Assembly (NCBI GenBank): GCA_023663185.1
Contig: JAMPHY010000027.1
Span: 1 to 37,720, forward strand
From: Clostridiales bacterium
GTDB lineage: Bacteria; Bacillota; Clostridia; Lachnospirales; Lachnospiraceae
Direction of reading: 5' to 3'
DNA length: 37,720 nucleotides
Positions 13,573-30,855 of the stretch are shown here, in pieces. The stretch's first letter is position 1, and each line of letters opens with the position of its first letter. The position numbers and the translations under genes were made by a program. The notes under the pieces are model-generated. The model searched no databases. It was not told where the DNA came from and saw only the letters and a program-made list of their open reading frames with translations.

Positions 13573-13757
13573 GACATTATCGTGTTGCTGTCTGAGGTGA
13601 TTTTATTAAATACGCTCTCAACCAGACTGCGAAGCTGCGATTTAAATATAATTACCAGGCCAACCAATACCACGATAATAAGAATAATTTCTACCGTTCC
13701 CATTCCATCTTCTTCTCTTAAAAAATCTTTAAACCCCTTTAGTTTTCTTTTACCCAT
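13569..13757 (-). CDS. flp: Flp-type pilin (major pilus subunit)
   Basis: A 62-residue prepilin. The leader is MGKRKLKGFKDFLREEDG and the predicted cleavage is after Gly18, giving a mature start MGTVEIILIIVVLVGLVIIF with Glu at position +5, as in type IV pilins. The hydrophobic helix forms the filament core and the C-terminus is very short, as in Flp pilins and the Flp1-like family. GGAGA lies 9 bases before the ATG. It follows tadC by 41 bases and precedes the DUF5702 gene with an overlap. It should be cleaved by one of the two A24 peptidases in the operon. Confidence 0.92.
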   Translation of the reverse strand: MGKRKLKGFKDFLREEDGMGTVEIILIIVVLVGLVIIFKSQLRSLVESVFNKITSDSNTIMS

Positions 13758-13798
13758 GACTCTTTTCTCCTTTACTAATTCTACTTTTACAAATCAAC

Positions 13799-15307
13799 TC
13801 AAAATGAACAGAACGCCGGAAACATTATAATTACCATGACGATACAGAGCATCATCATCATTGGCATAAGAAGCTTGGTTCCGGCTTCTTCCCCCAATCT
13901 TCTGGCGGTATTCTTCCTTTCTTCAAATGCGCTCGCCGCTTCCTGCCGCAGCATCATAAGCATATCGTTGCTGCCTTTTCGTATATTCTGTGACAAAAGC
14001 GCGCCCAGCTTCATATATGGCTGCAGCTGACATCTTTTTCCCAATCGCGCATACGCCTCCGTCTCCGAAATACCGCTTTGTAATTCGTTTACAAGCAACA
14101 GGATTTCTTCATAAGCATATCTTTTTTTGTCCGAATTTCCTTTTCTTTTATAATCCTCCCCCATCTTGTAGAAAGTTTTTCTAATGGACAAGCCCGCGCC
14201 CATATATAGCGTTACCTTGCTAACTACTTCCGGATAATCCAGCAATAATTCCTTTTTACGTTTCTCTAAATCTTTCTCTACGTCCTTCACTTTAGAAAAA
14301 TATATCAGTATAGAAGCGGCACACATGAGAAGAAAGAAATATCCGCTGTTGTCTTCAATCACCTCCTTCCAGATAACATTTTTGTTCTCTATATTATCCG
14401 GCAATATCATGACGCCGCCTGTTCTGCTCGCCTGATTTTGTTCTTCCAAAGACGCTTCAATGCTCTGCAATAATTGTTCCTCTCTGGTAAAAACCGCCGG
14501 TTGTACCTGAACCGGAAAGATTTCCTCATATTCTATTCCGTCATAACGCAGTATCGCCCGCAAAGTCACTATCTGCGCCTCTTCCAGCTCCCTATTATTA
14601 ACTTCGCCGTCAGTATGGATAATAGCGTAACTGCCGCTTTCCCATTCTATCTTGAATGGATAGCCCTCTATTTCGCTTGCCAGATTAAGATTCTTTGTTA
14701 CCGTCTCCAAGCTTTCGTTATCCCCTTTTATGATTTCCGCAAGGTTTTCTATAAATTTCTGATGAAGCAGTTCAATTTCCTCATGCGTGTATTTTTGCTC
14801 TTCCACGGTATAAGTAATGTTTTCAGGCTCGTTTCCTTCTATCTTTGCCGTCAGCGCCACTTCTATGCCACCCTGTCCATAACTTTTTCTGTTAATATAA
14901 TTTCCTTCCTTAATGAGTCCGCCCGTCTGCGCGCTTACCGCCACGCATAGCGAAAGAATATTTCCTACAAAAAGCACAAGCAGAGTAGTCGAATACTGCT
15001 TTATATAAAATTCATTTAACTGTTGCTTCTGTGACAATGACGGATGCAGAAGCTTTAAGTCTTTTCCCAGCTTACTTTTATGAAGTTGTTCTTTACTTCT
15101 CCAACTTCTCCCTATACCTTTGCCTATGCTTTTTCTTAAGAATTTTTCTTTCTGCCGTATACACCATATGGCTGCCTTTATAAAGTATTTCTCCCACGCT
15201 TTCGGCTTTTCTTCCCCCTGCTTCATATACTCAGCCGCATTTTCCGTTCGGGATACCATAAACAGTATAAGAAACAAAACCAACACAACAAGATATACAT
15301 AAATCAT
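13799..15307 (-). CDS. tadC: TadC-like pilus platform protein with large extracytoplasmic insert
   Basis: A 502-residue inner-membrane protein. An N-terminal membrane segment (1-20) is followed by a basic cytoplasmic stretch and a second segment (STTLLVLFVGNILSLCVAVSA, about 107-127). Then comes an Asp/Glu-rich domain of about 190 residues predicted to lie outside, and a third segment (FFLLMCAASILIYF, about 328-342). The C-terminal ~150 residues are a T2SSF-like platform domain (DYPEVVSKVTLYMGAGLSIRKTFYKMG ... LGEEAGTKLLMPMMMMLCIVMVIIMFP). The last part matches TadC. Ordinary TadC proteins are about 300 residues, so the outer domain is an unusual addition. It is 32 bases downstream of tadB. 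Confidence 0.85.
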   Translation of the reverse strand: MIYVYLVVLVLFLILFMVSRTENAAEYMKQGEEKPKAWEKYFIKAAIWCIRQKEKFLRKSIGKGIGRSWRSKEQLHKSKLGKDLKLLHPSLSQKQQLNEFYIKQYSTTLLVLFVGNILSLCVAVSAQTGGLIKEGNYINRKSYGQGGIEVALTAKIEGNEPENITYTVEEQKYTHEEIELLHQKFIENLAEIIKGDNESLETVTKNLNLASEIEGYPFKIEWESGSYAIIHTDGEVNNRELEEAQIVTLRAILRYDGIEYEEIFPVQVQPAVFTREEQLLQSIEASLEEQNQASRTGGVMILPDNIENKNVIWKEVIEDNSGYFFLLMCAASILIYFSKVKDVEKDLEKRKKELLLDYPEVVSKVTLYMGAGLSIRKTFYKMGEDYKRKGNSDKKRYAYEEILLLVNELQSGISETEAYARLGKRCQLQPYMKLGALLSQNIRKGSNDMLMMLRQEAASAFEERKNTARRLGEEAGTKLLMPMMMMLCIVMVIIMFPAFCSF

Positions 15308-15339
15308 AATAATCCCCCATTCTTATGCCGCCTGCCCAT

Positions 15340-16119
15340 CTATACTTCTATCTCCACCAATCTCCTTGAAATCATAAACGCCGCAAGATATACAATAAGG
15401 CAGACTGTCATAACAATGATTCCCGTCAGATTATGATATAGCGCGTCAAAAAATCCCTTCGACGTCATTTCTATGTAGATAATTATTAAAAACGGAACTA
15501 CATTCATAATCTTCTGCTCCATTTTCTTAGCGCTTACTATAACCTGTATCTCTTTATCCACCGCGATTTTCTGCTCAATGGTATCCGCCGTCTGCGCCAA
15601 AATCTCCGTCATATTGCCGCCGCTTCGCTTGGCAATCATAAAAACATCGGCAAACTGCATAATGTCCGGCACATGACTTCTAACTCCCAAATCATACAGA
15701 AGTCTTTCTAATGTGATGTTATTATCCAAGCCCTTCGTGATATAGTCGATTTCACGGCAGATATAACTTTCGCTTCCATATAACATAGCCATGTCCCGAT
15801 ATGCTTCCCTAAATGCATTCTCTACGGAATACCCTGCCCGCTGGTTCGCCGACACAGACAATACCATATCCTTAAACTGTACATTAAGCTCTTGCTTCCT
15901 GCTTTTATTAAGCTCTTCTTTCTTCTCCTTAAAGAAAATAATGATAATCGGAGATAAAATAAGACACGCCCAGATAGAACGGTAGAAAAAATATCCTATA
16001 ACGGCTAAAATCAAGATAGCTTCGACCAAGCACGCTATCCACTCTTTGCCGTTTAAAATATATTTCTCATAGTCCGTTCCCGTCCGTCTGTATTCCTGCG
16101 TTTTTAAGCTTCTCAACAT
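15340..16119 (-). CDS. tadB: TadB-like pilus platform protein
   Basis: A 259-residue inner-membrane protein of the type II secretion F (T2SSF) family. Two segments near the N-terminus (about 28-65) are followed by the cytoplasmic helical T2SSF domain (FKDMVLSVSANQRAGYSVENAFREAYRDM, then FADVFMIAKRSGGNMTEILAQTADTIEQK) and two C-terminal membrane segments. It forms the platform contacted by the TadA ATPase. The ATG has AAGGAG 9 bases upstream and lies inside the 3' end of tadA (53-base overlap). It is paired with tadC just downstream. Confidence 0.92.
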   Translation of the reverse strand: MLRSLKTQEYRRTGTDYEKYILNGKEWIACLVEAILILAVIGYFFYRSIWACLILSPIIIIFFKEKKEELNKSRKQELNVQFKDMVLSVSANQRAGYSVENAFREAYRDMAMLYGSESYICREIDYITKGLDNNITLERLLYDLGVRSHVPDIMQFADVFMIAKRSGGNMTEILAQTADTIEQKIAVDKEIQVIVSAKKMEQKIMNVVPFLIIIYIEMTSKGFFDALYHNLTGIIVMTVCLIVYLAAFMISRRLVEIEV

Positions 16120-17308
16120 AACTGAGTTCTCCTTTTTTACTTAGTTCTCCTAATACCCGACCGTCCGCGGCTTCTCCGTTTTCTTTAAAACGGTAGAGTG
16201 TATTAAGTTTGATTTCACCGTCCTCAAAGCCGAGAACTTCCACGATTTCCAGAACCTTTCTGGATTTATCCCTCAGCCGTCCGAGGTGGATTATGATATC
16301 AATACCTGAAGCAATCTGCTGTTTTATGGCGTTAAGCGGCAAATCCATTCCCATTAAAATCATATTTTCCAATCTGTAAAGCATGTCCTTAGAGCTATTG
16401 GCGTGTCCTGTGGACATAGAGCCGTCATGTCCCGTATTTAAGCATTGCATCATGTCAAAGGCTTCACCGCCCCTGACCTCACCGACTATTATCCTGTCGG
16501 GGCGCATTCTAAGAGACGATTTAATCAGTTCCCTAATCGTAATCTCCCTACACCCCTCCACGTTCGCATTCCTTGTTTCCAACCTGACTATATTAGGAAC
16601 ATTTAAAATCTGCAGTTCAGCGCTATCCTCAATGGTAATAATTCTTTCTTCCTTCGGGATATAATTAGACAGCGCGTTTAAGAAAGTCGTCTTACCGGAG
16701 CCGGTTCCGCCGCTGATAAAAATATTGTATCCCGCCTTAACCAAGCTCTCTAACCAGACACATACATCTTCCGGAACAGAACCGAATGAAATCAAGTCCT
16801 GCATGGTAATAGGCTTGTCCGGAAATCTTCTTATCGTGACAATCGGACCATTCAACGCTATCGGATTTAAAACCACATTAACCCTAGCTCCGTTTTTTAA
16901 TCTTGCGTCCACAATAGGCGAAGCCTCGTTGACAACCCTGTTGCACTCTGCTACAATCTGCTGGATTACGTCGATTAATTTTTCCTTACTTTCAAATTTC
17001 AAGTCGGAATGAATTAATCTGCCCTTTTTCTCGATAAAAATCTCTTCCGGTCCGTTAATCATTATTTCCGTAATCTCCGTATCGTCGATAAGCGCCTGTA
17101 AAACGTCTAATTTTCTGACTGCGTGGAAAAGTTCTTTCCTAAGACTCTCTTTCTCGGCAAGCGTCATTGAGCGCTTTTTCCCTTCTCTGATAAGCAGCTC
17201 GTCAATAAGCTCCTGAATTTCTTCGTCCGACATTTCTTTAGAATAGTCTATGCTTGCCGCAAGCGTCTCCCGTAATTCTTTTCTGGTCTCAATTTGCTTG
17301 ATTTTCAT
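16067..17308 (-). CDS. tadA: TadA/CpaF secretion ATPase
   Basis: A 413-residue hexameric ATPase that powers Flp pilus extension and possibly retraction. The N-terminal helical domain is followed by the EIMINGPEEIFIEKKG signature, DARLKNGARVNVVLNP, Walker A GGTGSGKTT at about 200-208, an Asp box ITIEDSAELQI, and Walker B DRIIVGEVRGGEAFDM with the His box HDGSMSTGHAN. All catalytic motifs are intact. I chose the ATG at 17306-17308 (MKIKQIETRK), preceded by AGGGTGA, rather than the start 13 codons upstream. It overlaps the end of tadZ by 20 bases. Confidence 0.97.
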   Translation of the reverse strand: MKIKQIETRKELRETLAASIDYSKEMSDEEIQELIDELLIREGKKRSMTLAEKESLRKELFHAVRKLDVLQALIDDTEITEIMINGPEEIFIEKKGRLIHSDLKFESKEKLIDVIQQIVAECNRVVNEASPIVDARLKNGARVNVVLNPIALNGPIVTIRRFPDKPITMQDLISFGSVPEDVCVWLESLVKAGYNIFISGGTGSGKTTFLNALSNYIPKEERIITIEDSAELQILNVPNIVRLETRNANVEGCREITIRELIKSSLRMRPDRIIVGEVRGGEAFDMMQCLNTGHDGSMSTGHANSSKDMLYRLENMILMGMDLPLNAIKQQIASGIDIIIHLGRLRDKSRKVLEIVEVLGFEDGEIKLNTLYRFKENGEAADGRVLGELSKKGELSYVEKLKNAGIQTDGNGL

Positions 17309-18305
17309 ATAAATCACCCTGTATGATTGCTTTGACATATCCTGCAAGCTCTCCGTGCGTCATTAAATTCAAATCCGACGGCAGCTTTTCAAAAAACGGA
17401 AAACGGCATTTCACGGTCTTTTCCGCAATATCGTCCATCTCGTTTAAGCGCAGAATTTTCTCATACTGCTCCATCTTCGCCATCGCAAAACTATCGTCTT
17501 TTATAATCGTATATATCTTGCAGCAGCGCGTCATCAACTCAAAGAGCCCGTTCATTCCGTCTGTCAAATCCAAAATCAGATATTCATAGTTGCTTATTTT
17601 GCCTATCGCTTCTAAAAGCTCCACCCATTTGTCGCCCGAAATCCCCTGCATATCAAGATTGGTCTCTCCCGGCGGAATATAATCTAAGCCGTTGATATTT
17701 TGCACTATGGACGGTAATCTGGTGGATAATTTTTCCTTAGCGCAGTTAAAATAATAGACCATGTCCATCATATCAGCCGCAAAATCCCGATGAAGCATTC
17801 TGCCAAAACCCGAATAGCTTTCAAAATTCAGATACAGCGCTTTATGCTCGCGTGCAAGCAACTGTCCCATAGTGAGCGCAAATGTGGTTTGAAGACATCT
17901 TTTGACCGGAGAATATACACCGATGATTTTCATTTTTAAGTCCTGCGCCGTATTTTCGTCACTCCAATTTTCAAACTCCGTGACTTGCTCTAATATCTGA
18001 GAAACTATCTGCTCCGGATTCTGATATTTATTTATGTATTTATAGTCTGTCTGTAAGCCATCAAGCTTCCCTTCATAGAGTACAAAAGTCTGCGTAATAT
18101 CCGGCTTTACCTTTATTTGCTTCAAGGCGCTCTCACCAATCAGCAAAATATTAATTTCCTCTCTGTCTAAAAACGGCTGCAATTCTTCTGTCTTAGTAAA
18201 AAGATGTAGGGTATACGGCATAGATATCCTATCCGTTATGTACTCCGCCATACGAAATGCGTAAGTCTCCTCCAAATCGCAGACCGCAAAAATCTTGTGT
18301 TTCAA
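17289..18305 (-). CDS. tadZ: TadZ/CpaE-like protein with degenerate nucleotide site
   Basis: A 338-residue protein. Residues 1 to about 120 resemble a receiver-like domain (EEINILLIGESALKQ), and residues about 125-338 a MinD/ParA-type fold (KMKIIGVYSPVKRCLQTTFALTMGQLLAREHKALYLNFE, later YEYLILDLTDGMNGLFELM). In Tad systems TadZ localises the assembly machine to the pole. The P-loop reads SPVKRCLQTTF, lacking the Gly-Lys of a deviant Walker A, so ATP hydrolysis is doubtful. The start is TTG with AGGAGG 6 bases upstream. It overlaps the tadV stop by 4 bases and tadA by 20. Confidence 0.85.
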   Translation of the reverse strand: MKHKIFAVCDLEETYAFRMAEYITDRISMPYTLHLFTKTEELQPFLDREEINILLIGESALKQIKVKPDITQTFVLYEGKLDGLQTDYKYINKYQNPEQIVSQILEQVTEFENWSDENTAQDLKMKIIGVYSPVKRCLQTTFALTMGQLLAREHKALYLNFESYSGFGRMLHRDFAADMMDMVYYFNCAKEKLSTRLPSIVQNINGLDYIPPGETNLDMQGISGDKWVELLEAIGKISNYEYLILDLTDGMNGLFELMTRCCKIYTIIKDDSFAMAKMEQYEKILRLNEMDDIAEKTVKCRFPFFEKLPSDLNLMTHGELAGYVKAIIQGDLYENQAN

Positions 18306-18835
18306 AGCATCCCTCCTAGTCCGAGCATTACACCGAAATAAATCGGTAATGCAAAATGTATTTTATTTCTCTTGTTCTTGTCAGAATCCCATTTGAGATT
18401 CTCTCCATACAGTTTCCATTGCCCCGTGTACATAACATCAAATAGATAAGAAAACAGATATTTCATTCTTTCCCTGAAATTCTTTTCTGATATTACTTTT
18501 AAAATGGATATTATAGCTCCGGTAATAAAAGAATATATCATGATATGAAGCTGCATATCTGCGGTGAAAAAACTGCCCGTCATAAGAAAAAGTTTTACAT
18601 CGCCGCCTCCTAAGCCGCCAATCCGATATACAGGATATAAAAGACAGAAAGAAATAAGTATTACCACTATGGCGTCGATTACGCCCCGCCAGCCGCCTCT
18701 CATGAAACTAAATAAGAAGCCTGTACATAGTCCGACTGCAATCAAAACATTAGGTATTCTGTCATACTTAAAATCCATAAAGACTGCCACTATCAGCAAT
18801 AGAATTAAAATGTAATAAAAATAAATCAGTCCAAT
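18302..18835 (-). CDS. tadV: A24-family prepilin peptidase (TadV/CpaA), probable ATT start
   Basis: Cleaves the Flp prepilin at the inner membrane. The catalytic aspartates are Asp21 in FMDFKYDRIPN and Asp79 in GGLGGGDVKL (GxGD motif). If started at the first conventional in-frame codon (TTG at 18797-18799), the protein would lose half of its first membrane helix. Reading back, the frame stays open to an ATT at 18833-18835, which has AAAGGAGG six bases upstream and restores a full first helix (GLIYFYYILILLLIVAVFM). I therefore call 177 residues with an ATT start; CTG two codons later is the alternative. It is the first gene of the Tad operon. Confidence 0.85.
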   Translation of the reverse strand: MGLIYFYYILILLLIVAVFMDFKYDRIPNVLIAVGLCTGFLFSFMRGGWRGVIDAIVVILISFCLLYPVYRIGGLGGGDVKLFLMTGSFFTADMQLHIMIYSFITGAIISILKVISEKNFRERMKYLFSYLFDVMYTGQWKLYGENLKWDSDKNKRNKIHFALPIYFGVMLGLGGML

Positions 18836-19754: not shown

Positions 19755-19809
19755 ATTATTTGATATTGTATATAATTAATACTTGCGAATCAAAGTCAAG
19801 GAGGCAGTT

Positions 19810-22800
19810 ATGATTATTTCTCGCAATCTGGACGCAATGAATCTAAATCGAATCGTCAACGATAATATCAGTGCACATGCAAAATCCTCGGAAAGAGTTT
19901 CTTCCGGTTATAGAATAAATCTTGCAGCGGACAATCCTGTAGGACTAGCCATGTCCGAAACTATGCGAAGACAAATCAGAGGGCTTATGCAGGGAACCAA
20001 TAATACTAAAGACGGCGTTGCTTTTGTCCAGATTGCCGACGGAGCTATGTCGGAAATTCACGATATGTTACAGCGAATGAACGAGTTATCGCTCAAATCG
20101 GCGGACGGACTCTGTACCGCAGTTGACCGCGCTGCATTAAATGCTGAATTTGACCAGCTCCGCACGGAAATTGACCGCATTAACAGCAATACCTCATTTA
20201 ACACGATGCCGGTGTTTGAAGAACATGAGCCTTCCTATTATCAAATCTGTGGAAACAGACAGTGGAATGATAATCAGCTTCATACGATTACCGAATCGAC
20301 AAATGAGTTAAACATTCATCTGCCTGATGGTTATGTGCCAAAAGACTACACGATTACAGTTCCGGCAGGCACATATACTACGCAGGAGTTAATGGACGAA
20401 ATAGACGACGCTTTACATAAAATGTCCCCAGCTAATCCGGGGTTTGTGTTTGAGTACACTAGCGATGGTTATTGTAATTTGAATTTTGAAAGCGCTGATG
20501 GCAAGCCGACGATGATTGACTTTATCGACGGTTCGCTTTCGTATCTTATTTATGATTTTGAGACGGGGGGATCTGCTGCTACGCTATTGGGTACTACGGG
20601 ATTTGGTCCCGGTGAAACTCTGTCTATTTCCAGAGGAAACAATGATGTACTTGGTTTTTATCTTGAACGTGACGGAATTTCCCAAGAGGTTTCTATAACA
20701 CTTGCACCAAAATCATATACTTATGACGACCTGTTCAATGCAATCCAGTCAGAACTAAATAATGCTGCCACTAAAGCTTCTCTCGCTGCAGACGTCAAAG
20801 TTGAAACATATGAAGATGATGGTAAAAGGTATGTCCAGATTACAGGTACGAATAATGTAAATATTACCGGTTTGAAGGGTAATATGTTTCGGTTTGAAAA
20901 AAGTGGTCAAATTTATCACTCCGCATTTTATGATAATGCTATTTATGGTGAATTTAAAAATACGCCTGCTTCAATTACCGGTAATTATTATGACAGCAGC
21001 TATCCAATAGGAATATCAGATAATAATAATATCCTTAAGTTTAAAGTTAATAATAAAGAATATGAAATTAAAATTCCGGTAAAAGCTAATGGGGACGGCT
21101 ATACCGTTTCACAGCTTGTCAGTCTAATAAATAGTAATGCAGACGTTAAAGATGTAGTTACAGCCAGTTCTGTTTCTAAATATATTTCTGGACGCAACGA
21201 CTATTGCTATGCCTTGAAATTATCCGGAACCCAAGGTGCGCTTGTTTTTGATACTGATTCTGATGTTAATAAAAATACATATAATACACTTTTCTGCACT
21301 GATGGTGATTTCTCTACTATTATAACAGGTCAGCCTGCGTCAATAACAGGAACTGCTAATTTGACAGGAAAGATTTCTCTTCCAGATGAGCCTTTAATAT
21401 TTTATGTCGATGGCACGAAATGTACGCTTACCGGCATCGGTGGAGATTATAACAGTCTGGAGGATTTATGCACTAAATTAAATGGCATTATACCTGATGA
21501 TATAAAGACGAAAATAAAATTTGATAAAGACAGCAGTAACCATATACGTATAGTCGCTCAATCTTCTGCCGTTAAAAAGATAGAGATTAAAGATAAAAAT
21601 AATACTTATAATACCCTTTTTACGCAAAAGAGATATACTTACTATACTTCCTCATATAGCGGAAGGTTATATACTACCGGCAGTACACAGCAAGGTAATC
21701 TTAGTTCTGAGGAAAAATATGAAGCTGCAACCTATCGTAAATATGATTCTACATCAGACTTTCAGAAACCGATAGATTTAAGCGGCAATAATACAATGAC
21801 AATCAATCTTAGCAAGGGCAGTCCGATAACCATTACTTTAAACGAAAAATACGATACCATTGGGCAATTAGTTAATGATATTAATAGCAAACTTGGTTCC
21901 GCATCAAGCGAGGTAAGTGTATCATACACTAGCAGTAGTAGTAGCGGCAGTATAAATTTTAACTATAGCCCTGACAGATCTAAAGTTAAAGTCGGTGATA
22001 ATTGGTCAATTAGCGTAAATTTTAATTGGGACGCAATTTTTAAAACAAGTGTACAAGGACATTCATCAAGCAATCAATCCGACTCGACAATAACATCTTT
22101 TTCCACAATATCTAACGGGATTAAGATAGATGACAGTAATAATGTATTAGAATTAAAGTTAAACGGTATGACCAATGCCGGTATAGTAACCATTAAGAAT
22201 GGTACCTATAATACCAAAGAGGCGTTAGCAAAAGCAGTACAGGATGCAATCAATGCCACCAATGATTTAAAAGATAAAGGAATTACCGTATCCTGTGAAA
22301 ATTCCAAATTAGTATTAACCGCTCCATATGGAACATTCACCAGTAATTCTGTCAAAGGCAGTTTTTATTACAAAGTAATGTGCGAGATAAAAGATTTATC
22401 GCCAGATATTTCAGCAGGAGGCTCCAAATATGATCCGCCTGCCCGCATTATAGGTCGTGTAGACCTGACAAAAGAACCTCTTGAAATAATCAAGGGCGCT
22501 AATGACCAGATTACTTTTGATTTTACTTATCCCGGCTCCACGGATCCTCTAGTAATAACGATTACACTTCCTGCGGGAGAATATCAGGATGGAATTGCGC
22601 TTTTTGGCGATAAAAACAATCCCAATCAAGATCTGATTGACGAGATAAAAAGGCAAATTGATGACTATGATTCAAGCGTTCCTAATTGTGACGAAATTAA
22701 AAGACTGTTTGGTACAGGCGGTATTTTTGACTTAAACTTTACTATAGGAGGCGAGAGTACCGGTGCGGCAAATAGTGTAGACTCTTCCGCATTACAGATA

Positions 22801-23640
22801 TCTGCAACGCTAAGAGACGAAACAAACGTTCCCCCTCTTAGCGCAGGACAATATATTATTGACGGCGTTCGCGGAAGCGCAGCTCCCTTTGTCTTCTATA
22901 AGACAACTTCCCTGCCGATACCTTCTTATATCATCGGCACTAAGAATGTAATGGACGGAGTTACTATTGAATCGGGTAAGAATATACTCACACTCTCTTC
23001 CAACAACATACCTTTTCAGTATACGTTCCCGGAAGATACTTTTTATACCGCGGACGAATTGATTGATAAGTTAAATGATATGTTTGAAAACGGCGACGAC
23101 TATGGCAATCCGGCTCCGTTAGAAGCAGCATTGGAAAATGGCGCGGTAAAAATTTCCTACAAGCTTCTAGGTTCTAATAAAATAACAAACGTTGGCGGAA
23201 GCGCAAGAAGCACCATCTTTTTTGAGGAGGAAGGCAGGGATTCCAGAGATCCGTTGATTCTTCAAGTCGGCGCTGAGCAGCGTTCAACAATAGAATTGCC
23301 GCGTATAAGCGTTAGCTCCTGTTCACTGGGTATTAATTCTCTTACGATAAGCCAGATGAAATATGCTGACAAAGCCATAGAACGTATTAAGGAAGCAATT
23401 CATAAGCTGAACGCTAAGAGAAGCACTTATGGAGCCATGCAGAACCGCTTAGAACACACAATCAATAATAATGAGAATATAACAGAAAATGTTCAGGATA
23501 CAGAATCCGAAATCCGTGACACCGACATTGCTTCGGAAATGATACGATATTCTAATCTAAGCATATTGCTTAAAGCCGGACAGTCTATGATTGCACAGTC
23601 TAATCAAAGAATTGAAAAGCTTTTAACCATACTGCAATAA
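19810..23640 (+). CDS. giant flagellin with tandem Flagellin_IN-like modules
   Basis: A 1276-residue flagellin. The N-terminal D0/D1 region (1 to about 140) is canonical (SRNLDAMNLNRIVNDNISAHAKSSERVSSGYRIN ... RMNELSLKSADG), as is the C-terminal D1/D0 region (about 1160-1276, ending SMIAQSNQRIEKLLTILQ). The ~1000-residue variable region holds about eight degenerate repeats, near residues 163, 267, 400, 523, 656, 769, 890 and 1050. Each has a strand pair, an aromatic turn such as Y-T/N, and a helix ending near I-N or I-D (for example GDGYTVSQLVSLINS, EKYDTIGQLVNDINS, TFYTADELIDKLND). This resembles the Flagellin_IN motif. I chose the ATG with GGAGG five bases upstream. The gene converges on fliS. 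Confidence 0.93.
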   Translation: MIISRNLDAMNLNRIVNDNISAHAKSSERVSSGYRINLAADNPVGLAMSETMRRQIRGLMQGTNNTKDGVAFVQIADGAMSEIHDMLQRMNELSLKSADGLCTAVDRAALNAEFDQLRTEIDRINSNTSFNTMPVFEEHEPSYYQICGNRQWNDNQLHTITESTNELNIHLPDGYVPKDYTITVPAGTYTTQELMDEIDDALHKMSPANPGFVFEYTSDGYCNLNFESADGKPTMIDFIDGSLSYLIYDFETGGSAATLLGTTGFGPGETLSISRGNNDVLGFYLERDGISQEVSITLAPKSYTYDDLFNAIQSELNNAATKASLAADVKVETYEDDGKRYVQITGTNNVNITGLKGNMFRFEKSGQIYHSAFYDNAIYGEFKNTPASITGNYYDSSYPIGISDNNNILKFKVNNKEYEIKIPVKANGDGYTVSQLVSLINSNADVKDVVTASSVSKYISGRNDYCYALKLSGTQGALVFDTDSDVNKNTYNTLFCTDGDFSTIITGQPASITGTANLTGKISLPDEPLIFYVDGTKCTLTGIGGDYNSLEDLCTKLNGIIPDDIKTKIKFDKDSSNHIRIVAQSSAVKKIEIKDKNNTYNTLFTQKRYTYYTSSYSGRLYTTGSTQQGNLSSEEKYEAATYRKYDSTSDFQKPIDLSGNNTMTINLSKGSPITITLNEKYDTIGQLVNDINSKLGSASSEVSVSYTSSSSSGSINFNYSPDRSKVKVGDNWSISVNFNWDAIFKTSVQGHSSSNQSDSTITSFSTISNGIKIDDSNNVLELKLNGMTNAGIVTIKNGTYNTKEALAKAVQDAINATNDLKDKGITVSCENSKLVLTAPYGTFTSNSVKGSFYYKVMCEIKDLSPDISAGGSKYDPPARIIGRVDLTKEPLEIIKGANDQITFDFTYPGSTDPLVITITLPAGEYQDGIALFGDKNNPNQDLIDEIKRQIDDYDSSVPNCDEIKRLFGTGGIFDLNFTIGGESTGAANSVDSSALQISATLRDETNVPPLSAGQYIIDGVRGSAAPFVFYKTTSLPIPSYIIGTKNVMDGVTIESGKNILTLSSNNIPFQYTFPEDTFYTADELIDKLNDMFENGDDYGNPAPLEAALENGAVKISYKLLGSNKITNVGGSARSTIFFEEEGRDSRDPLILQVGAEQRSTIELPRISVSSCSLGINSLTISQMKYADKAIERIKEAIHKLNAKRSTYGAMQNRLEHTINNNENITENVQDTESEIRDTDIASEMIRYSNLSILLKAGQSMIAQSNQRIEKLLTILQ

Positions 23641-23670: not shown

Positions 23671-23708
23671 ACAGGGGCTTCTCAAACGAGAAAGCCCCTG
23701 TTTTCCTT
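23671..23708. terminator. bidirectional terminator between giant flagellin and fliS
   Basis: A G+C-rich stem (CAGGGGCTT with AAGCCCCTG, extended by CTC/GAG) is followed on the plus strand by TTTTCC and on the minus strand by TTATTTTA. The fliS stop codon lies inside the hairpin. It should end both convergent transcripts. Confidence 0.85.
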
Positions 23709-24158
23709 TGTATTTGACATATTTTCCGTCAAGGTATTTTTACCATAAGTCAGTCCCGCATATACTGTCTGTGTATTCCCCAGAACCGCTTCCGACGTAT
23801 CCTGTGGTTCTATCTGCTTCCACGCTGTATGAAGTCGTTTGATTATAGTCTCCACATGGTCCAGATTTTCTTGTTTACAATGCCTGTTTGCCTGCACTAA
23901 TTCTCTGTTAATATACAGATAAAGCTGCAATAAATTCCGCGCCACAGCGTACTCCATATGCAGCGACACGATTAGTTCATCTATGCAGCCACGAATCTTC
24001 CGGATTGCATTTTTATATTCAACCTTATCCTCTGCCAAAAGAGCTGCCTTCGCTTCGTCCAGATAAAGCAAAATCATCTCATACAGAATAGTAATCAGTT
24101 GAGTTTTGTTTGCATGTGTAATCTTCAACGTGAACTCCTGCTTTAATTCCTTAGTCAT
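23682..24158 (-). CDS. fliS: FliS flagellin export chaperone
   Basis: A 158-residue helical protein that should bind the C-terminal D0 helix of flagellin in the cytoplasm and prevent early polymerisation. Family pattern: TQLITILYEMILLYLDEAKAAL, then MEYAVARNLLQLYLYINRELVQAN and the helix with TIIKRLHTAWKQI. The last ~35 residues are an unrelated polar tail. The family usually has about 120-135 residues, so the tail is an extension. GAGG lies 8 bases before the ATG. It is 29 bases downstream of the conventional flagellin, a standard pairing. Confidence 0.88.
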   Translation of the reverse strand: MTKELKQEFTLKITHANKTQLITILYEMILLYLDEAKAALLAEDKVEYKNAIRKIRGCIDELIVSLHMEYAVARNLLQLYLYINRELVQANRHCKQENLDHVETIIKRLHTAWKQIEPQDTSEAVLGNTQTVYAGLTYGKNTLTENMSNTKENRGFLV

Positions 24159-24187: not shown

Positions 24188-25321
24188 TTACTGCAATAAC
24201 TGCAATATCTGTGACGGTCTCTCGTTTGCCTGCGCCAGCATGGATACCGCTGCCTGCTCTACTACCTGCTGCGTCGTGTAATCAGTCATTTCTTCTGACA
24301 CATCTGCGTCCATAATGCGAGAATATGAAGCAGTCATATTTTCACTTGTGATATCCAAACTGCTAACCGTATGTTCCAAACGGTTCTGATATGCACCGAG
24401 ACGGCTGCGCGCCGACGATACATAAGCAATCGCGCCCTTAATAGCCTCGATAGCATCAGAGCTGCTCTCCTGTGTGGATAAATCCGCGTTGGTAAGTCCT
24501 AATCGCTGCAATGATATCGTCGGAATCCGAATTGCAAGGGTCTGACCTTCATTTGCCCCAATCTGCGTATCCATCGCACCGATACCGGTAATATCCACCT
24601 CTAAAGGTCCTACTGAATAAGGTGAGACGCCATTCGGCGTAACATCTAGTGTAAGCTCAAATCCATTGTTTGCCGTAATCGTAACACAGTTCTCTCCAAC
24701 AGCGGACAGTACCGCTCCTGTCGGAAAGCCCTTCCCGTCCTCTGCCTTAAAACTGTTCTTCGTCCTATCTAAATCAATTTTTCCTGTAGCGATATCTTCA
24801 TAGTAAATATCCAGTGCATCAATAGTATAAACCTTTGCTATTACTTCATCACTATAATAACCTACTTTAACATTCAGATTATCTGTATATCCTTTCAACT
24901 CAAAGCTGCCGTCCAGAAGCGTCTGTCCGTTAAATTCCGTATCTTTTGAAATTCTTGTAACCTCTTCTTTTAACTGCTTCATTTCTTCCTGTACGATAGC
25001 TCTGTCGCTTGTCGTCAGGGTGCCGGTAGCCGATTTAATAGCCAGCTCGTTCATTCTCTGCAGCATTTCATGCACTTCTACCAGAGCGCCGTCTGCGGTT
25101 TCAATAATTGAAATACCCGTACTTGCATTCTTTGTCGCAACTGAAACGCCTTCAATCTGCGCGTCCATTCTACGCGCAATCGCATAACCGGAAGGGTTAT
25201 CTTTTGCCTGATTCAATTTAAGTCCCGATGATAGTCTCTGTAAAGACGCCGATACTCTGTTGTCCGCTACATTCAATGAATTGTTAGCGCGCATTGCTGT
25301 TGCATTATAATTAATTCTCAT
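24188..25321 (-). CDS. conventional flagellin
   Basis: A 377-residue flagellin, probably the main filament subunit. N-terminal D0/D1: MRINYNATAMRANNSLNVADNRVSASLQRLSSGLKLNQAKDNPSGYAIARRM through DTEFNGQTLLDG. The variable middle is about 150 residues. C-terminal D1/D0: RLGAYQNRLEHTVSSLDITSENMTAS ... ISMLAQAN-like ending MLAQANERPSQILQLLQ. The ribosome binding site is strong (GAGGAGG, 8 bases before the ATG). It is followed by fliS and preceded, with a 39-base gap, by the 1007-residue protein. No separate flagellar promoter is evident directly upstream, so it may be read from the promoter at 28.45 kb. Confidence 0.93.
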   Translation of the reverse strand: MRINYNATAMRANNSLNVADNRVSASLQRLSSGLKLNQAKDNPSGYAIARRMDAQIEGVSVATKNASTGISIIETADGALVEVHEMLQRMNELAIKSATGTLTTSDRAIVQEEMKQLKEEVTRISKDTEFNGQTLLDGSFELKGYTDNLNVKVGYYSDEVIAKVYTIDALDIYYEDIATGKIDLDRTKNSFKAEDGKGFPTGAVLSAVGENCVTITANNGFELTLDVTPNGVSPYSVGPLEVDITGIGAMDTQIGANEGQTLAIRIPTISLQRLGLTNADLSTQESSSDAIEAIKGAIAYVSSARSRLGAYQNRLEHTVSSLDITSENMTASYSRIMDADVSEEMTDYTTQQVVEQAAVSMLAQANERPSQILQLLQ

Positions 25322-25360: not shown

Positions 25361-28300
25361 CTATTCTGCCATCACTGTTATAAACGCTTTGGCAATTTTA
25401 TACAGGTCAGCAGTTGCGACAGTTGATTCTTCCTGTGTCGTTTCAGCTATGAAATTATTCAAATTCAATTCATTGCTGTGAACTACACTGAGCGTTCCAA
25501 GTTCATGTTCGTTTCGTATAAGTGAATCTACATGTTCTTTAAAAGCTGCTTTTAGATTTTCTTCCCTGTTTTGCAGGTTCTTAGTTCCTTCCGCCGTATC
25601 GCAGGCAATATATCCGGATATCTTTTGATTTTTAATACTAAATTCTGCCGCAACCTCTCCATAACTTTCCGTAGAAAAGGCTGCCTTTACCTTACCGGCT
25701 CCCTCTTTACCATGCAGCACTTTCAAATGAATAGCTGTCATTTCTCCATTAATTTCAACCGGTATTTGATAGTTTTCTTCCTGTGCCAAATTTGCCGACA
25801 GCGCAAGCTGCCTATGGCAACTTTGAATGAACTTCAAATCAATGTACTTAATCTGTGTATCATTCTGCTGCTCTTCAAGAGCTTCCTCAAGAATCTGATT
25901 CATTTCCTTATATGCTTCCTGTGCAGTATCTTTATCTGTCAGGGCTTTTTTCATATGGGAAACAGCATCTTTGATTTTCTCTTTTCTTTCCGGCGTTGCA
26001 GCAGAGTTGATATCCTTATATAGAGAACCTCTTTTATTCATCAACATATCGGCTGCCAGCAGATTATTGGCGGTTACAGGCTGATGGTTCTGTAAAAGTT
26101 CATTAATGACTGTATCCTCTACTTCACTTGCCTGCCGATAGTCTTGAAGCTGTTCTTCTTTATAATCCGCCTCTATGTCTGAATCCTGCTTCGCCATTTG
26201 GTCTCTTATATCTCTGACAATATCACGGTAGCATTTTTTAAATCCGCTTTCTATCTGCGCGGTAATTGAGGCATTCTGCTCTACCGCTTTAAGACCTGTG
26301 AAATCATCATTAACGACATAGTCCATACCTTTTTTCTTCTGGCTTCTTATGGCGCTTAGCAGGTTTTTAAATGAAAGCTCCGCTCCGGTGTTCAGGATTG
26401 CTCCGACCGCAGCATCATCGGTTTTCTCAAATTGCCTGAACATACGGTAAATTCCGATATATGCTTCCCTCTCCGATTCTGTAATCTGGTTATTTTTTTC
26501 AAGGTTATATAAAAATTTACTGTACTTTTCAGTTTCCTGCTCCTGTTCATATTGGGAGTTAGTCAAATAGTCATTCAACTCAGGTATTGTCATTTCTAAC
26601 GGATTTCTACCGTCACGGATTGTCTGCAAAACGACTGCCGGCGTCATTTTAGTTATTACACTGTGCAGCTCTCTGTCGGCAGCTATTACATTCCGCATGT
26701 TCTCCTCGGACAGCTCCATTTTATTATAGCCAAGAATCCGAATTGCACGGCGATTTTCTTCGTCTACTTCCATTTCTAAGTCTTGCAGGATATCGTCCAC
26801 ATTACGAAATGCTTTCTTGATGGAATCGCCTAAATCAGTTCTTACTTCCGTCATCCACGCTTCATACTTTCTACCGGCGCTTTCATAATCATTTTTAAGA
26901 ACGCCGCCTTCAACATGAACATGATTTAAAGTAAAATCTTCATCAGTCACTTTAAATCTGCCAATCATGTCTATCGGATATTGCGGAATCTGTGCAATTT
27001 TATCGTTTGTTTCTGTATATAGCGCCGCTTTTTCTGCCGCCCGTTCAATATCGGGTTCATTAAATAAAAGCTGTTTTTGCTGGGCTTCAATTTTCTTCAA
27101 AGCCTCTACTAACTGTTCCAATTCCGTAGTATCAATCGAATATCCGCTTTCTAGCAGTTTTCGATTAGCCTCTATTGTCATAATCAGGCGGACTTCTTCT
27201 AACTGCCGCCTTGCAGTAATATCTTCCTTCGGCGCATAAGTATCTTCCGGCTTTACAGGCGCATGAGCATCTTCCGGCTTTACAGATACGCGGGCGTCTT
27301 CCGGCTTATCTTGAATTGCCTCTAGATTAGCAAGCGTCAGCGGCTTTTCTTCCGCCGCAGCTTTATCAACCGTCTCGTCCGTAATGTTTGAAAATCTTTC
27401 CACATAATCTGCCGCTTTTTCCAGATTGCTTCTGCCATCGGCAAGATTTGCCTCTCCTGCGCTTTTCCCATCTGCTATCGCTGAGGCAATCGCAGATAAA
27501 ATCTCTTTATCAGCCTGTGGCAGTTCCACAGTCTTTAAATTATGCAAATCTGCCAGTGCTTCCGGCGTAAGCGGCAATCCTTTTTCAATAATCCACTTTG
27601 CATCATTCAAGGTATCTTCTTCTACATCTAAGCCGGCTTCTTCTATTATTTTTTCCATCTGCGGTAATAACTGCTGCCAGTTAAATTCTTCCGCTTTTTT
27701 GGCATAATATCCGGAAGTATCGGCGTAATATCCTCTGCCCTGCCTGTCTCCGTCCGCCGTGGAACTATGGTCGGCAAGATACAGATTATCAATGGTCGGC
27801 TTCATATGGTTCTCAACCATATATTTCATACTGCCTTCCGTCATATCCTGAAGCTCTTTAGCTTTATCATAAGCTTCTTTTGCATTTTTTGCATTTTCTT
27901 CCGTAACAGGAATATCCTGCTTTGCAAACTGCATACACAGTTCTCTTGCAAAAGCTTCGCTGCCTACAATACTCTCAAGCTCCTCCATATCAATCTGGTC
28001 AGTATACCCGTCTATCTGTACGCCGCTCTTTGCCAGTTCTACTTTAATTGTATCAAGGATAGTGACAACTTCTTTTGCTTCCATATCTCCGGCATGATAG
28101 CCGTCTTCTTCCAGCTTCTTAAAATCGTCCGTAGACATAGTATTAGACATAACTGTGATATAGTCTCTCTGCATGGCAATATCCGCCTGCTCTGCCGTCT
28201 GCATTACATCTTCTGCGGTCTTTCCCTGACCTTTGTAAGCATTGTTATCCATAACTGTCCCAGAAATGTCTAATGTATATGCACTCATCTGACTCACTTC

Positions 28301-28384
28301 TTCCGTATGAGTGCTGCGATATGTAGTTGTCATTCCCCGCTCTACATTATTTATAGTGTTATTGTTATCAAATGTTATCTTCAT
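25361..28384 (-). CDS. large helical repeat protein of the flagellar locus, FliK-like C-terminus
   Basis: A 1007-residue soluble protein of unknown function with no signal peptide or membrane segment. A short motif recurs about six times: PVTEENAKNAKEA, PLTPEALADLHNL, PLTLANLEAI, ELSEENMRNVIAA, ELSFKNLLSAI, PVTANNLLAADML. A tandem nine-residue repeat (KPEDAxxxV) sits near residue 370. The C-terminal ~110 residues (YQIPVEINGEMTAIHLKVL ... YGEVAAEFSIKNQKISGYIAC) resemble the C-terminal domain of hook-length proteins such as FliK. I recall DUF6240 being used for similar Lachnospiraceae proteins, unverified. I chose the ATG with GGAG seven bases upstream, two codons after a GTG. It sits between flagellinolysin and flagellin. 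Confidence 0.6.
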   Translation of the reverse strand: MKITFDNNNTINNVERGMTTTYRSTHTEEVSQMSAYTLDISGTVMDNNAYKGQGKTAEDVMQTAEQADIAMQRDYITVMSNTMSTDDFKKLEEDGYHAGDMEAKEVVTILDTIKVELAKSGVQIDGYTDQIDMEELESIVGSEAFARELCMQFAKQDIPVTEENAKNAKEAYDKAKELQDMTEGSMKYMVENHMKPTIDNLYLADHSSTADGDRQGRGYYADTSGYYAKKAEEFNWQQLLPQMEKIIEEAGLDVEEDTLNDAKWIIEKGLPLTPEALADLHNLKTVELPQADKEILSAIASAIADGKSAGEANLADGRSNLEKAADYVERFSNITDETVDKAAAEEKPLTLANLEAIQDKPEDARVSVKPEDAHAPVKPEDTYAPKEDITARRQLEEVRLIMTIEANRKLLESGYSIDTTELEQLVEALKKIEAQQKQLLFNEPDIERAAEKAALYTETNDKIAQIPQYPIDMIGRFKVTDEDFTLNHVHVEGGVLKNDYESAGRKYEAWMTEVRTDLGDSIKKAFRNVDDILQDLEMEVDEENRRAIRILGYNKMELSEENMRNVIAADRELHSVITKMTPAVVLQTIRDGRNPLEMTIPELNDYLTNSQYEQEQETEKYSKFLYNLEKNNQITESEREAYIGIYRMFRQFEKTDDAAVGAILNTGAELSFKNLLSAIRSQKKKGMDYVVNDDFTGLKAVEQNASITAQIESGFKKCYRDIVRDIRDQMAKQDSDIEADYKEEQLQDYRQASEVEDTVINELLQNHQPVTANNLLAADMLMNKRGSLYKDINSAATPERKEKIKDAVSHMKKALTDKDTAQEAYKEMNQILEEALEEQQNDTQIKYIDLKFIQSCHRQLALSANLAQEENYQIPVEINGEMTAIHLKVLHGKEGAGKVKAAFSTESYGEVAAEFSIKNQKISGYIACDTAEGTKNLQNREENLKAAFKEHVDSLIRNEHELGTLSVVHSNELNLNNFIAETTQEESTVATADLYKIAKAFITVMAE
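27244..27307. repeat. 27-base tandem repeat inside the 1007-residue protein gene
   Basis: Two full copies and a partial third of a 27-base unit starting CTTCCGGCTTTACAG, at 27244-27270, 27271-27297 and 27298 onward. They encode the nine-residue Lys-Pro-Glu-Asp-rich repeat. A length-variable linker is likely. Confidence 0.75.
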
Positions 28385-28441
28385 ATACACTCTCCATGCA
28401 GCAGGTTATTTAATTTATAGTATTTGTACCGTACACACTTT

Positions 28442-28472: not shown

Positions 28473-30449
28473 CTACTGCAAAAGTCTCATTGCATTCTGT
28501 GCGCTTTGGTTTGCCTGCGCAAGAATAGATACGCCCGATTGCTCCAAAATATTATTGATAGAATACTCAACCATTTCTTCTGCAATGTCCGTATCTCGAA
28601 TAAGAGACTCGGCTGACTGCATTTTTTCCGCCATATTATCCAGATTAGCAATCGTATGCTCTAACCGGTTTTGTACAGCGCCATATTCCGAGCGCATAAT
28701 GGAGATACAGTTAATTGCCGTCTTATATTTATCAATGGCTTTTCCTGCATTATCCATCGAATCTACTTTAACGTCCGCAATACCTAAATCGTTCGTAGAT
28801 AACATAAATGTACTCATCTCTATCGTCTGGTGCGCTTCCGCGCCGACCTGTACGGAAAGGATACCCGAACGCTGCACGGTGCCTCTTTTGGCGTCCGATG
28901 AACTTCCCCATGTACTCTCGGCGTCAGGATTTGTGTTTCCATCTCTGTCTAAGCCGCTTGTTGTGGTAGCTCCCCCGCCTGTATATGTATTTTTTCCGTT
29001 TAATTCATTCGTATAGCTCTGGTTATCCACATTCAGAACAAAATAATCATCCTTGCTAATTGTTTGCGGGTTTTTATTAATAAGGGAAGCTTTGGTACCG
29101 GAAAGTCCGTCCGGCGATGCAATAGAGCCGGTGCCGCTTCCGATTGCTGTAACAAGGTCTTTGGTGAATTTCACCGCGTCTTTTGAAAAACTATCCTCAA
29201 AATCCGCCAAATCATAATACTTACCTTTCGTCTGCCGTGAAATAGCCTGTCCCAGAGAATATCCGTCCTCAATGTCCTTTAATATATTATCAAGACCAGA
29301 CGCAATGGTTCCTGCACTCACAGCCGGACCTACGCCCGCTGCACAGCCTGCAGTATAACCTAAATACATACTGGCAATATATCCTTGCGCATACGCATTG
29401 TAGGAATTGGAGGTATCCGTTAAGTCAGATAACCAATTACTAATTGCTCCATCGCCTTTTGGCATAGCACTATTAACAAGCGTCGAGCAGTAATTGATTG
29501 CCCCGCCAACTGCCTGCGCAGTACCTTCTACAAACCACGAAGGAAACTGGTCCGCCCCATATGCGCCTAACATACCGTTCGTCGTTGCATCAAACATAAC
29601 CGCATGTGTCATTTCATGGGCAATCGTCGTGGCAAGGTCCTCCTTCATTTCTATGCCTTTACCTGTTTCGTCTAAATATTTTAAATTTATACCAAGTTGA
29701 AAGGAAACTCCATTGGAAGATACATACGCCAATGTGGAATCATCGTTATAATACATTTTCAATCCAATCTGCATTCCTGAAACCGTAGGTATCGCCGACT
29801 GAGGCAGCGTGGAAACAATATCCCCCAATAATGTAGGCATATAAGTATTCCTTATCTCATTGGCAAAGCCTGACAACCCTGCCTGCGTAAATGTCTTGCC
29901 CGCTGCCTGCGCCTGTGAAATAGACGCCGAAAAATCCTGCATTTCAAACGACATATAATCTGCGTCTAGGAAAACAATATCAGAAATATTCTCCTTCTGT
30001 TCGGCGTTATTCTTTTCGTCAGAAGGCACGTGAGAAGAATCAAACATGTCGATTTCATTAAACTGCATACTTGTGGCAATTCTGTTAATCTCTTTATGCA
30101 GGTGTGCAATCTCATCATAGATTGCCTTTCTATCTTCCGGCTGATTTGTATCATTCGCCGCCTTAACTGCCAGCTCATTAGCTCTTTGCAGAAGGTCATG
30201 TACTTCATTCAGCGCGCCTTCCGCACTCTGCGCAAAAGAAATGCCGTCTTTAGTATTAAAAGAAGCCTGCTGCATTCCTCTGATTCGTCTGCGCATATTT
30301 TCAGATATTGCCATAGCCGCCGCATTATCCGCTCCGCTGTTGACTTTATATCCGGACGAAAGTTTTTCTGTTGAATTTGCTTTTTTACCAACCGTCGTAT
30401 TCAAATTGCGCGTGGCGTTTAAGCCTCTTAAATTATGCTGAATAACCAT
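28473..30449 (-). CDS. flagellinolysin: flagellin with an inserted metallopeptidase domain
   Basis: A 658-residue flagellin whose variable region contains a zinc metallopeptidase. N-terminal D0/D1 (1 to about 135: MVIQHNLRGLNATRNLN ... SSGYKVNSGADNAAAMAISENMRRRIRGM) and C-terminal D1/D0 (about 560-658, ending SILAQANQSAQNAMRLLQ) are intact, so it should polymerise into the filament. The middle carries HEMTH at 278-282 (TTIAHEMTHAVMFDA) and a downstream Glu at 308 in WFVEGTAQAVGG, the gluzincin arrangement of two His plus Glu. This matches the flagellinolysin family described in Clostridium haemolyticum and other bacteria, in which filaments carry proteolytic activity. A G-rich ribosome binding site precedes the ATG. 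It follows the zinc-ribbon gene by 19 bases. Confidence 0.95.
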   Translation of the reverse strand: MVIQHNLRGLNATRNLNTTVGKKANSTEKLSSGYKVNSGADNAAAMAISENMRRRIRGMQQASFNTKDGISFAQSAEGALNEVHDLLQRANELAVKAANDTNQPEDRKAIYDEIAHLHKEINRIATSMQFNEIDMFDSSHVPSDEKNNAEQKENISDIVFLDADYMSFEMQDFSASISQAQAAGKTFTQAGLSGFANEIRNTYMPTLLGDIVSTLPQSAIPTVSGMQIGLKMYYNDDSTLAYVSSNGVSFQLGINLKYLDETGKGIEMKEDLATTIAHEMTHAVMFDATTNGMLGAYGADQFPSWFVEGTAQAVGGAINYCSTLVNSAMPKGDGAISNWLSDLTDTSNSYNAYAQGYIASMYLGYTAGCAAGVGPAVSAGTIASGLDNILKDIEDGYSLGQAISRQTKGKYYDLADFEDSFSKDAVKFTKDLVTAIGSGTGSIASPDGLSGTKASLINKNPQTISKDDYFVLNVDNQSYTNELNGKNTYTGGGATTTSGLDRDGNTNPDAESTWGSSSDAKRGTVQRSGILSVQVGAEAHQTIEMSTFMLSTNDLGIADVKVDSMDNAGKAIDKYKTAINCISIMRSEYGAVQNRLEHTIANLDNMAEKMQSAESLIRDTDIAEEMVEYSINNILEQSGVSILAQANQSAQNAMRLLQ

Positions 30450-30468: not shown

Positions 30469-30855
30469 TTAATCCCACAAGCCGATTTGCTGCCAGCTAA
30501 AGTTCGTACCTTTACAGACAGGACATGGTCTATGTTTCTGCAGTATTATTTCGTACAGTTCTCTATTGCATTTTTTACATTTATTTCCTAATGTAACTTT
30601 ACTCCCATCTGTCAGCTCGGCGTCCACGGAAAGCAGAGCTGACACCTCGGCGCAATGGGCGCAATAATATGCCTTCTGCTCTGCCGCAAAAGAAGCTATC
30701 TTTTTCTGTTCAAGCAGCATTTTCCATTTTTGTGCATCTTCTTTATCCAGGCAGGAAGCAATAACATCAGTATTATTACTCATCAATCCGCTTCCTACCG
30801 ATATTTCCTTATGCAGCCCACATTCTTTGCATGATAAAACTATTCTCTGCCCCAT
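30469..30855 (-). CDS. zinc-ribbon-type small protein upstream of flagellinolysin
   Basis: A 128-residue soluble protein with four CxxC pairs: CKEC near the N-terminus (9-12), CAHC (about 64-67), CKKC (about 92-95) and CPVC (about 110-113), plus one lone Cys. The spacing suggests two zinc ribbons, one formed by the last two pairs. The middle is helical. There is no signal peptide. GAGGAG lies 7 bases before the ATG. It is 19 bases upstream of the flagellinolysin gene and likely shares its transcript. I do not recognise the family. A regulator or a nucleic-acid or protein-binding factor is possible. Confidence 0.75.
   Translation of the reverse strand: MGQRIVLSCKECGLHKEISVGSGLMSNNTDVIASCLDKEDAQKWKMLLEQKKIASFAAEQKAYYCAHCAEVSALLSVDAELTDGSKVTLGNKCKKCNRELYEIILQKHRPCPVCKGTNFSWQQIGLWD

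Follow-up and report, generated by a model that had tools for sequence, protein, structure and literature searches.

The window, by which we mean the whole stretch of DNA that was analyzed, is one complete contig of 37,720 bases from a draft genome of 3.83 Mb in 54 contigs, whose host is Butyrivibrio-like; Butyrivibrio belongs to the Lachnospiraceae. On the minus strand it carries an intact open reading frame of 658 residues (28473..30449; ATG at 30449, stop at 28473), which matches the flagellinolysin model NF033876 and the two filament domains Flagellin_N and Flagellin_C. A preliminary description of this DNA had given the same coordinates, strand and length and had called both polymerization domains intact. 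The Pfam results bear this out: Flagellin_N (PF00669, 124.5 bits) spans residues 3-138 (30036..30443, minus strand) and Flagellin_C (PF00700, 76.3 bits) residues 573-657 (28479..28733, minus strand), both over their cut-offs and nearly full-length. The metallopeptidase region lies at about residues 150-450 (29100..30002, minus strand), with limits that derive from two alignments and are approximate. Upstream, 19 bp before the start codon and on the same strand, ends a gene for a protein of 128 residues (30469..30855), which we call ZnR; it has four CxxC pairs and a C-terminal Trp-Asp.

The two genes form part of a flagellin island. On the same strand lie a protein of 1,009 residues with a DUF6240 domain (25361..28390; PF19753, 404 bits), a plain flagellin of 377 residues identified by Pfam (24188..25321) and the flagellin export chaperone FliS (23682..24158; TIGR00208, 58 bits, over cut-off). 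At the other end of the island, on the plus strand, is a giant flagellin (19783..23640) of 1,285 residues from the first start codon or 1,276 from a likelier methionine; it has Flagellin_N and Flagellin_C, and its middle of about 1,050 residues matched no Pfam family over cut-off. The literature searched held no mention of DUF6240. The C-terminal part of the DUF6240 protein is, by eye, reminiscent of hook-length control proteins, but Pfam matched no hook domain there. Adjoining the island is a pilus-type secretion operon (12136-18799, minus strand) with Peptidase_A24, T2SSE, two T2SSF proteins and DUF5702, parts of which occupy the same place in several relatives.

NF033876 aligns collinearly with the window protein, residues 112-588 falling on positions 3-383 of the 384 of the profile, with 151.6 bits and an E-value of 4.2e-44 (152.9 bits for this copy in the genome-wide search). 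The curated cut-off of 205 bits is not reached. Because the score is below the cut-off, yet the match is collinear, the protein is best described, as far as its sequence tells, as a divergent class close to the flagellinolysin family, and not as a member by NCBI's own rule. The assignment to the flagellinolysins in the preliminary description is nevertheless right at this level, as judged by the architecture, the collinear match and the published signature residues.

That signature comprises an HExxH motif, a distal glutamate ligand and an alanine three residues beyond the glutamate (PMC5595980, main text), and all three elements are present in the window protein. The predicted zinc-binding and general-base motif, HEMTH, occupies residues 278-282 (29604..29618, minus strand) and the predicted third zinc ligand is Glu308 (29526..29528, minus strand), both of which had been pointed out before; the alanine of the predicted hydrophobic basement is Ala311 (29517-29519, minus strand). 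We aligned 23 proteins, namely the window copy, its orthologue from a Butyrivibrio sp. metagenome-assembled genome (JAMPEU010000006.1, 86% identity across residues 1-658), 20 other copies of the genus and one copy that comes from a different family within the order, leaving out L033, which has an in-frame stop, and L036, which lies on the same contig as L017. H278, E279, H282, W305, E308 and A311 are unvarying in all 23, the window's own protein counted. Shuffling residues 141-560 produced an HExxH motif in just 10 of 20,000 trials, which makes an origin by chance alone unlikely.

In Pfam searches with the window protein, no peptidase family scored over its cut-off, the best being Aspzincin_M35 (15 bits against 30), and Peptidase_M9 (collagenase) was absent from the matches at E up to 1. 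With the catalytic regions of the 23 aligned members, Peptidase_MA_2 matched weakly in seven (best E 0.003). The clostridial collagenases, peptidase family M9, are considered the closest structural relatives of flagellinolysins (PMC5595980, main text), but Peptidase_M9 matched one of the 23 members (E 0.063), and no collagenase came up when the solved structures of the PDB were searched with a catalytic-region profile. At E up to 10 that search yielded two matches, the better at 1.2, both to unrelated enzymes and neither beyond chance.

Among characterized proteins, FliA(H) of Clostridium haemolyticum (PMC5595980, main text) is likewise a flagellin with a gluzincin-type HExxH...E domain in its variable region. 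The spacing of the residues corresponds: the third ligand lies 25 residues beyond the second histidine in FliA(H) (His237, Glu262) and 26 in the window protein (His282, Glu308), and in both an alanine (Ala265 in FliA(H)) follows three residues after the ligand glutamate. Unlike FliA(H), the window copy is of a divergent class marked by an insert of about 45 residues and adjoins a zinc-ribbon gene, and its activity is predicted. HgrFlaMP of Hylemonella gracilis (PMC7643111, main text) has the same architecture, with HExxH in the variable region; its gene is placed among non-flagellar genes (a NUDIX hydrolase, a MarR regulator), in contrast to the window copy, which lies in a flagellin island with FliS.

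The insert follows the protease region, spans residues 466-510 (28920..29054, minus strand) and is characteristic of the window's class: the 17 other rows of the alignment have gaps or short linkers there, and residues 469-503 have no counterpart in 15-17 of these rows. It contains DRDGNTNPD at residues 501-509, a pattern (DxDGNxNPD) that recurs in all six aligned rows of the class, and in five of the nine class copies in a stricter form with a final glutamate. The loop resembles a calcium loop, and calcium binding by it would be a guess from this resemblance. A putative calcium site near the active site, Asp206, has been described for FliA(H) (PMC5595980, main text). We considered whether the window's class had lost a conserved aspartate of the putative calcium site and dropped the idea: Asn255 of the window protein aligns with a column that, read by eye in 49 sequences, is mostly D or N, asparagine being common.

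We searched 77 genomes of the genus, which are mutually related and in many cases incomplete drafts, so that their co-occurrence counts are not turned into a probability. Flagellinolysin (NF033876 match, E up to 1e-15) was found in 30 of them, in 32 copies: 23 over the NF033876 cut-off, which we call the main class, and nine below it, with 160 bits or less, the window copy included. Both classes occur together in genomes G031 and G050, with one copy each. HEMTH is present in all nine low-scoring copies, and the class also extends beyond the genus to G573, a genome of another genus with HEMTH and a ZnR gene beside it. In eight of the nine, the gene is part of an island that adjoins what we take to be a glycogen branching enzyme-like gene, in the order ZnR, flagellinolysin, DUF6240 protein and plain flagellin, followed by FliS where the stretch reaches that far and, in longer stretches, by the pilus-type secretion operon; gene names in these islands come from similarity to the window genes or from reading by eye. 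Six of the eight have a large flagellin immediately upstream of ZnR, of 1,268 residues in G056, where it is a relative of the window's giant flagellin, and of about 660-730 in the others; the window has its giant flagellin at the opposite end instead, seemingly like the Butyrivibrio orthologue. The ninth copy, in G499, is a ZnR-flagellinolysin pair in a different flagellar cluster. The main-class neighborhoods that we examined differ from the island, L075 and L076 being alike and L077, L078 and L079 each different.

The flagellinolysin gene is under purifying selection, with a dN/dS against the 86%-identical orthologue of 0.13 over the whole gene and 0.16 over residues 226-340. We infer that the outer, surface-exposed domain of the window protein adopts the fold of a gluzincin zinc metallopeptidase (MEROPS M101 type), binds zinc and is catalytic, and that the flagellin ends would let the protein pass the flagellar export channel and join the filament as a minor subunit, where the domain would cut proteins or peptides outside, near the cell. 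The subunit FliA(H) was indeed found in filaments of C. haemolyticum (PMC5595980, main text). The protease-bearing filament of the preliminary description is thus probable, with the rewording that the protein would be a component of the filament, and probably a minor one because the genome holds seven further Flagellin_N matches over cut-off.

That the window protein is an active filament protease we hold with good confidence, against two alternatives that both appear quite improbable. One is that the middle domain descends from a metallopeptidase but is inactive, and is kept at the surface for filament shape or for binding. The scores of the window's class, well under the family cut-off, would fit this, as would the relative G788, which lacks the general-base glutamate and is otherwise alike, down to an adjoining ZnR gene; a copy without this residue can therefore persist, unless that of G788 is freshly damaged or misread. 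The catalytic residues, however, are kept in 23 of 23 aligned copies and in nine of nine of the window's class, and the gene is under the selection noted above. The other alternative, which the main text of PMC7643111 discusses as secretion, is that the protein uses flagellar export but is released as a soluble protease and not built into filaments. Against it stand the completeness of both polymerization domains in the window protein and the filament location of the C. haemolyticum homologue (PMC5595980, main text).

The ZnR protein of the window matched no Pfam or NCBIfam family over cut-off. In an alignment of 22 ZnR proteins, one of which starts at a GTG read as methionine, the invariant positions are M1, G2, the eight cysteines of the four CxxC pairs, G21, G23, P112 and the final W127-D128, and the dN/dS of ZnR, 0.085, points to purifying selection. 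At E up to 0.1, nine of the 22 matched the ECs_2282 family putative zinc-binding protein (NF047912, best E 7.5e-05) and seven the FmdB-type zinc ribbons (TIGR02605, best E 0.00032), with a similarity that is weak and centered around the CxxC pairs. The window ZnR, with its four CxxC pairs, scores 13.4 bits with NF047912 against a cut-off of 37, and by tests of this type ZnR appears to be a member of no named family. Its profile, run against the PDB, had RNA polymerase, ribosomal and RNA-binding zinc ribbons as best matches, at E-values (best 0.019) little above chance. An initial idea that the C-terminal Trp-Asp might plug the active site of the protease was dropped, as four ZnR relatives without flagellin nearby have the same ending.

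Within the genus, ZnR and flagellinolysin go together. A ZnR gene adjoins 31 of the 32 flagellinolysins on the same strand, as judged by coordinates, with gaps of 17-108 bp in the 21 loci measured, and the pair is found in several different gene neighborhoods. The order depends on the class, ZnR being downstream in 22 of 23 main-class copies and upstream in all nine low-scoring ones. The ZnR profile (E up to 0.001) detected the gene in 33 of the 77 genomes, among them all 30 with flagellinolysin, and the two genomes with two flagellinolysins also carry ZnR twice; the second match in G043 is weak (E 3.7e-4) and falls in a frame of 570 residues. At the thresholds used, 44 of the 47 genomes without flagellinolysin also lack ZnR. 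The remaining three are G009, where ZnR starts 230 bases from a contig end; G048, where it lies beside a decayed flagellinolysin split into two separate frames; and G033, which has no flagellinolysin and a ZnR remnant of 67 residues. The remnant adjoins what is presumably a carboxypeptidase-like gene, resembling by eye the one beside the pair in G048, so that the two genomes show decay at a shared place. The one flagellinolysin without an adjacent ZnR, a main-class copy in G053, has a ZnR on another contig of the genome, in an island of the window type where the large flagellin and the DUF6240-like gene have no flagellinolysin between them.

We further compared distances among ZnR proteins with those among flagellinolysins in 25 loci, comprising 15 of the 23 main-class copies, all nine of the window's class and L133 from another genus; L018 and L025, which have no adjacent ZnR, and L033 and L036 were left out. 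In the main class (15 loci), ZnR correlated with the protease region at r 0.805 and with the filament core at r 0.634 (partial correlations 0.69 and 0.32). Neither correlation was reached in 5,000 permutations, run for each r by itself, and the contrast is weakened by the filament core being more conserved and so noisier. In the window's class (nine loci), ZnR tracks both parts equally, at 0.702 and 0.699.

Beyond the genus, the survey covered the family with 299 genomes, roughly one for each genus. In 21 of them the ZnR profile matched at E up to 0.001, and in 10 of these, window included, below 1e-13. Eight of the 10 strong matches adjoin a flagellin-fused copy (the window, G541, G616, G788, G573, G564, G606 and G701), although the copy of G541 has an in-frame stop and that of G788 is the one without the general-base glutamate; the others are G748, at a contig edge, and G557, which has no flagellin in the 9 kb read. 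Two of the 11 weaker matches were inspected (L120, L121), and no flagellin was seen. The flagellinolysin model matched in 13 of the 299 genomes at E up to 1e-15. In two of these, G624 and G747, the match is to the profile tail alone, with no catalytic motif, and in G601 the sole copy has a signal-like and not a flagellin-like start; G701 has two copies with signal-like starts beside its flagellin-fused one (first 100 residues read in both genomes). The flagellin-fused catalytic domain thus occurs in 10 genomes of the family, with ZnR beside it in eight; in the other two, G781 and G783, there was no ZnR match genome-wide at E up to 0.001. The HExxH...E domains with signal-like N-termini (L147 and L148 of G701, L143 of G601) are apparently secreted proteases without a flagellin start, and no zinc-ribbon gene was recognized in the flanks examined.

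Outside the family we examined 12 flagellinolysin loci (L018, L041-L051; some genomes contribute several, and two loci overlap one tandem pair). Ten of these have no ZnR-like neighbor in their flanks, and in the two loci of G399 a shorter cysteine-rich gene of 104 residues lies downstream of flagellinolysin. Across the phylum, the ZnR profile matched in six of 348 genomes at E up to 1e-6, all of other families, and no flagellin or HExxH...E frame was found in the surrounding 6-8.7 kb. Since these six and G557 have ZnR relatives without flagellin in the stretches read, ZnR belongs to a wider, unnamed family that as a whole has no exclusive bond with flagellinolysin, and the association of the two genes is a feature of the window's bacterial family. 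At four loci, L155-L158 (G284, G309, G230, G163), ZnR-like proteins that end in Trp-Asp are encoded in a non-flagellar context, three of them beside the same enzyme-like gene. Viral contigs from IMG/VR were tried as a source of more protease flagellins and rejected: all 18 loci (L052-L069) are flagellin-like and none has the catalytic pattern in the flagellin frame. These contigs carry either prophage-borne flagellin genes or are misfiled bacterial ones.

Scans for sigma-28 promoters, using what we take to be the consensus and shuffles that kept base composition only, did not support control of the window's ZnR-flagellinolysin pair by this factor. The best site before ZnR fits 9 of 11 positions, which 23 of 100 shuffles equalled. 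A second scan, stricter and run over the whole window, yielded two sites that both lie away from flagellin genes, compared with 0-3 in ten shuffles. Upstream of the giant flagellin, the first scan had a match of 10 of 11 (2 of 100 shuffles) and the stricter one had none. Among main-class loci, 9 of 16 show a match of 10-11 of 11 upstream of flagellinolysin.

Taken together, flagellinolysin in the filament with ZnR as its cytoplasmic partner is the explanation that we consider probable as a whole. ZnR would bind the protease domain ahead of export and hold it in an unfolded, zinc-free or inactive state, by withholding zinc, delaying folding or blocking the site, and the protease would thus be spared from cutting the cell's own flagellins or itself. 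One characterized flagellinolysin cuts flagellins of another species and itself (PMC7643111, main text), and this behavior gives the cell a reason to keep the domain inactive until it is exported. Since ZnR is conserved, adjoins the protease gene on one side or the other and co-diverges with the protease region, it is the best candidate for such a guard. A functional partnership of some kind is, on these data, strongly favored, and ZnR would likely act on the protease before export. Physical contact between the two and the kind of action are a further step: that ZnR is a chaperone or inhibitor rather than a regulator is a tentative proposal, somewhat short of an even chance.

A partner role has to contend with the flagellinolysins elsewhere that lack ZnR, and with the window's class, where ZnR tracks the filament core as closely as the protease region. 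ZnR could instead regulate the expression of flagellinolysin, for instance by binding nucleic acids, without touching the protein, a reading that we regard as rather unlikely but worth keeping in view. Zinc ribbons often bind nucleic acids, the weak PDB matches noted above are to ribbons of RNA polymerase, of ribosomes and of RNA-binding proteins, and ZnR relatives occur in non-flagellar settings; yet a transcription regulator would have no need to co-diverge with the protease region, as ZnR does in the main class. It is less likely still, indeed improbable, that ZnR is a hitchhiker in a pair that was assembled once and has since been passed on or transferred in one piece without any functional connection. 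Genomes drawn from a single genus do not count as independent, linkage is enough to account for co-transfer, and ZnR in the 15 main-class loci also tracks the filament core beyond all 5,000 permutations. The order of the genes, however, differs between the classes, so that the pair must have been re-joined or rearranged at least once; G053, the genome with the sole unpaired flagellinolysin of the genus, has kept a ZnR elsewhere; and ZnR itself is under purifying selection.

What was known before is the flagellinolysin as a kind of protein; the zinc-ribbon partner and the divergent class are added here. Both, like the surrounding flagellin island, go beyond the preliminary description. In the literature searched we found no example of a cytoplasmic safety partner for an enzyme displayed on flagella, within the parts of it that were consulted, and nothing that joins a zinc ribbon to flagellin, chaperone and Lachnospiraceae. 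The main texts of PMC5595980 and PMC7643111 contain neither a zinc ribbon nor Butyrivibrio, a supplementary gene-neighborhood figure of PMC5595980 lying outside the search.

The analysis thus delimits a divergent class of filament proteases in Butyrivibrio-like bacteria. For the Lachnospiraceae we put forward, as a speculative extension that we would not yet bet on, that the protease flagellin travels with the two-ribbon zinc protein as a portable cassette of two genes. The zinc protein would then be a cognate guard that binds the catalytic domain while still in the cytoplasm, deprives it of zinc or prevents its folding, and comes off at the flagellar export gate. How a broad protease is produced harmlessly in the cytoplasm and exported is a matter on which the parts of PMC5595980 and PMC7643111 that we consulted are silent, and the linked ZnR gene offers a concrete, testable candidate for this step of safe production and export of flagellinolysin.
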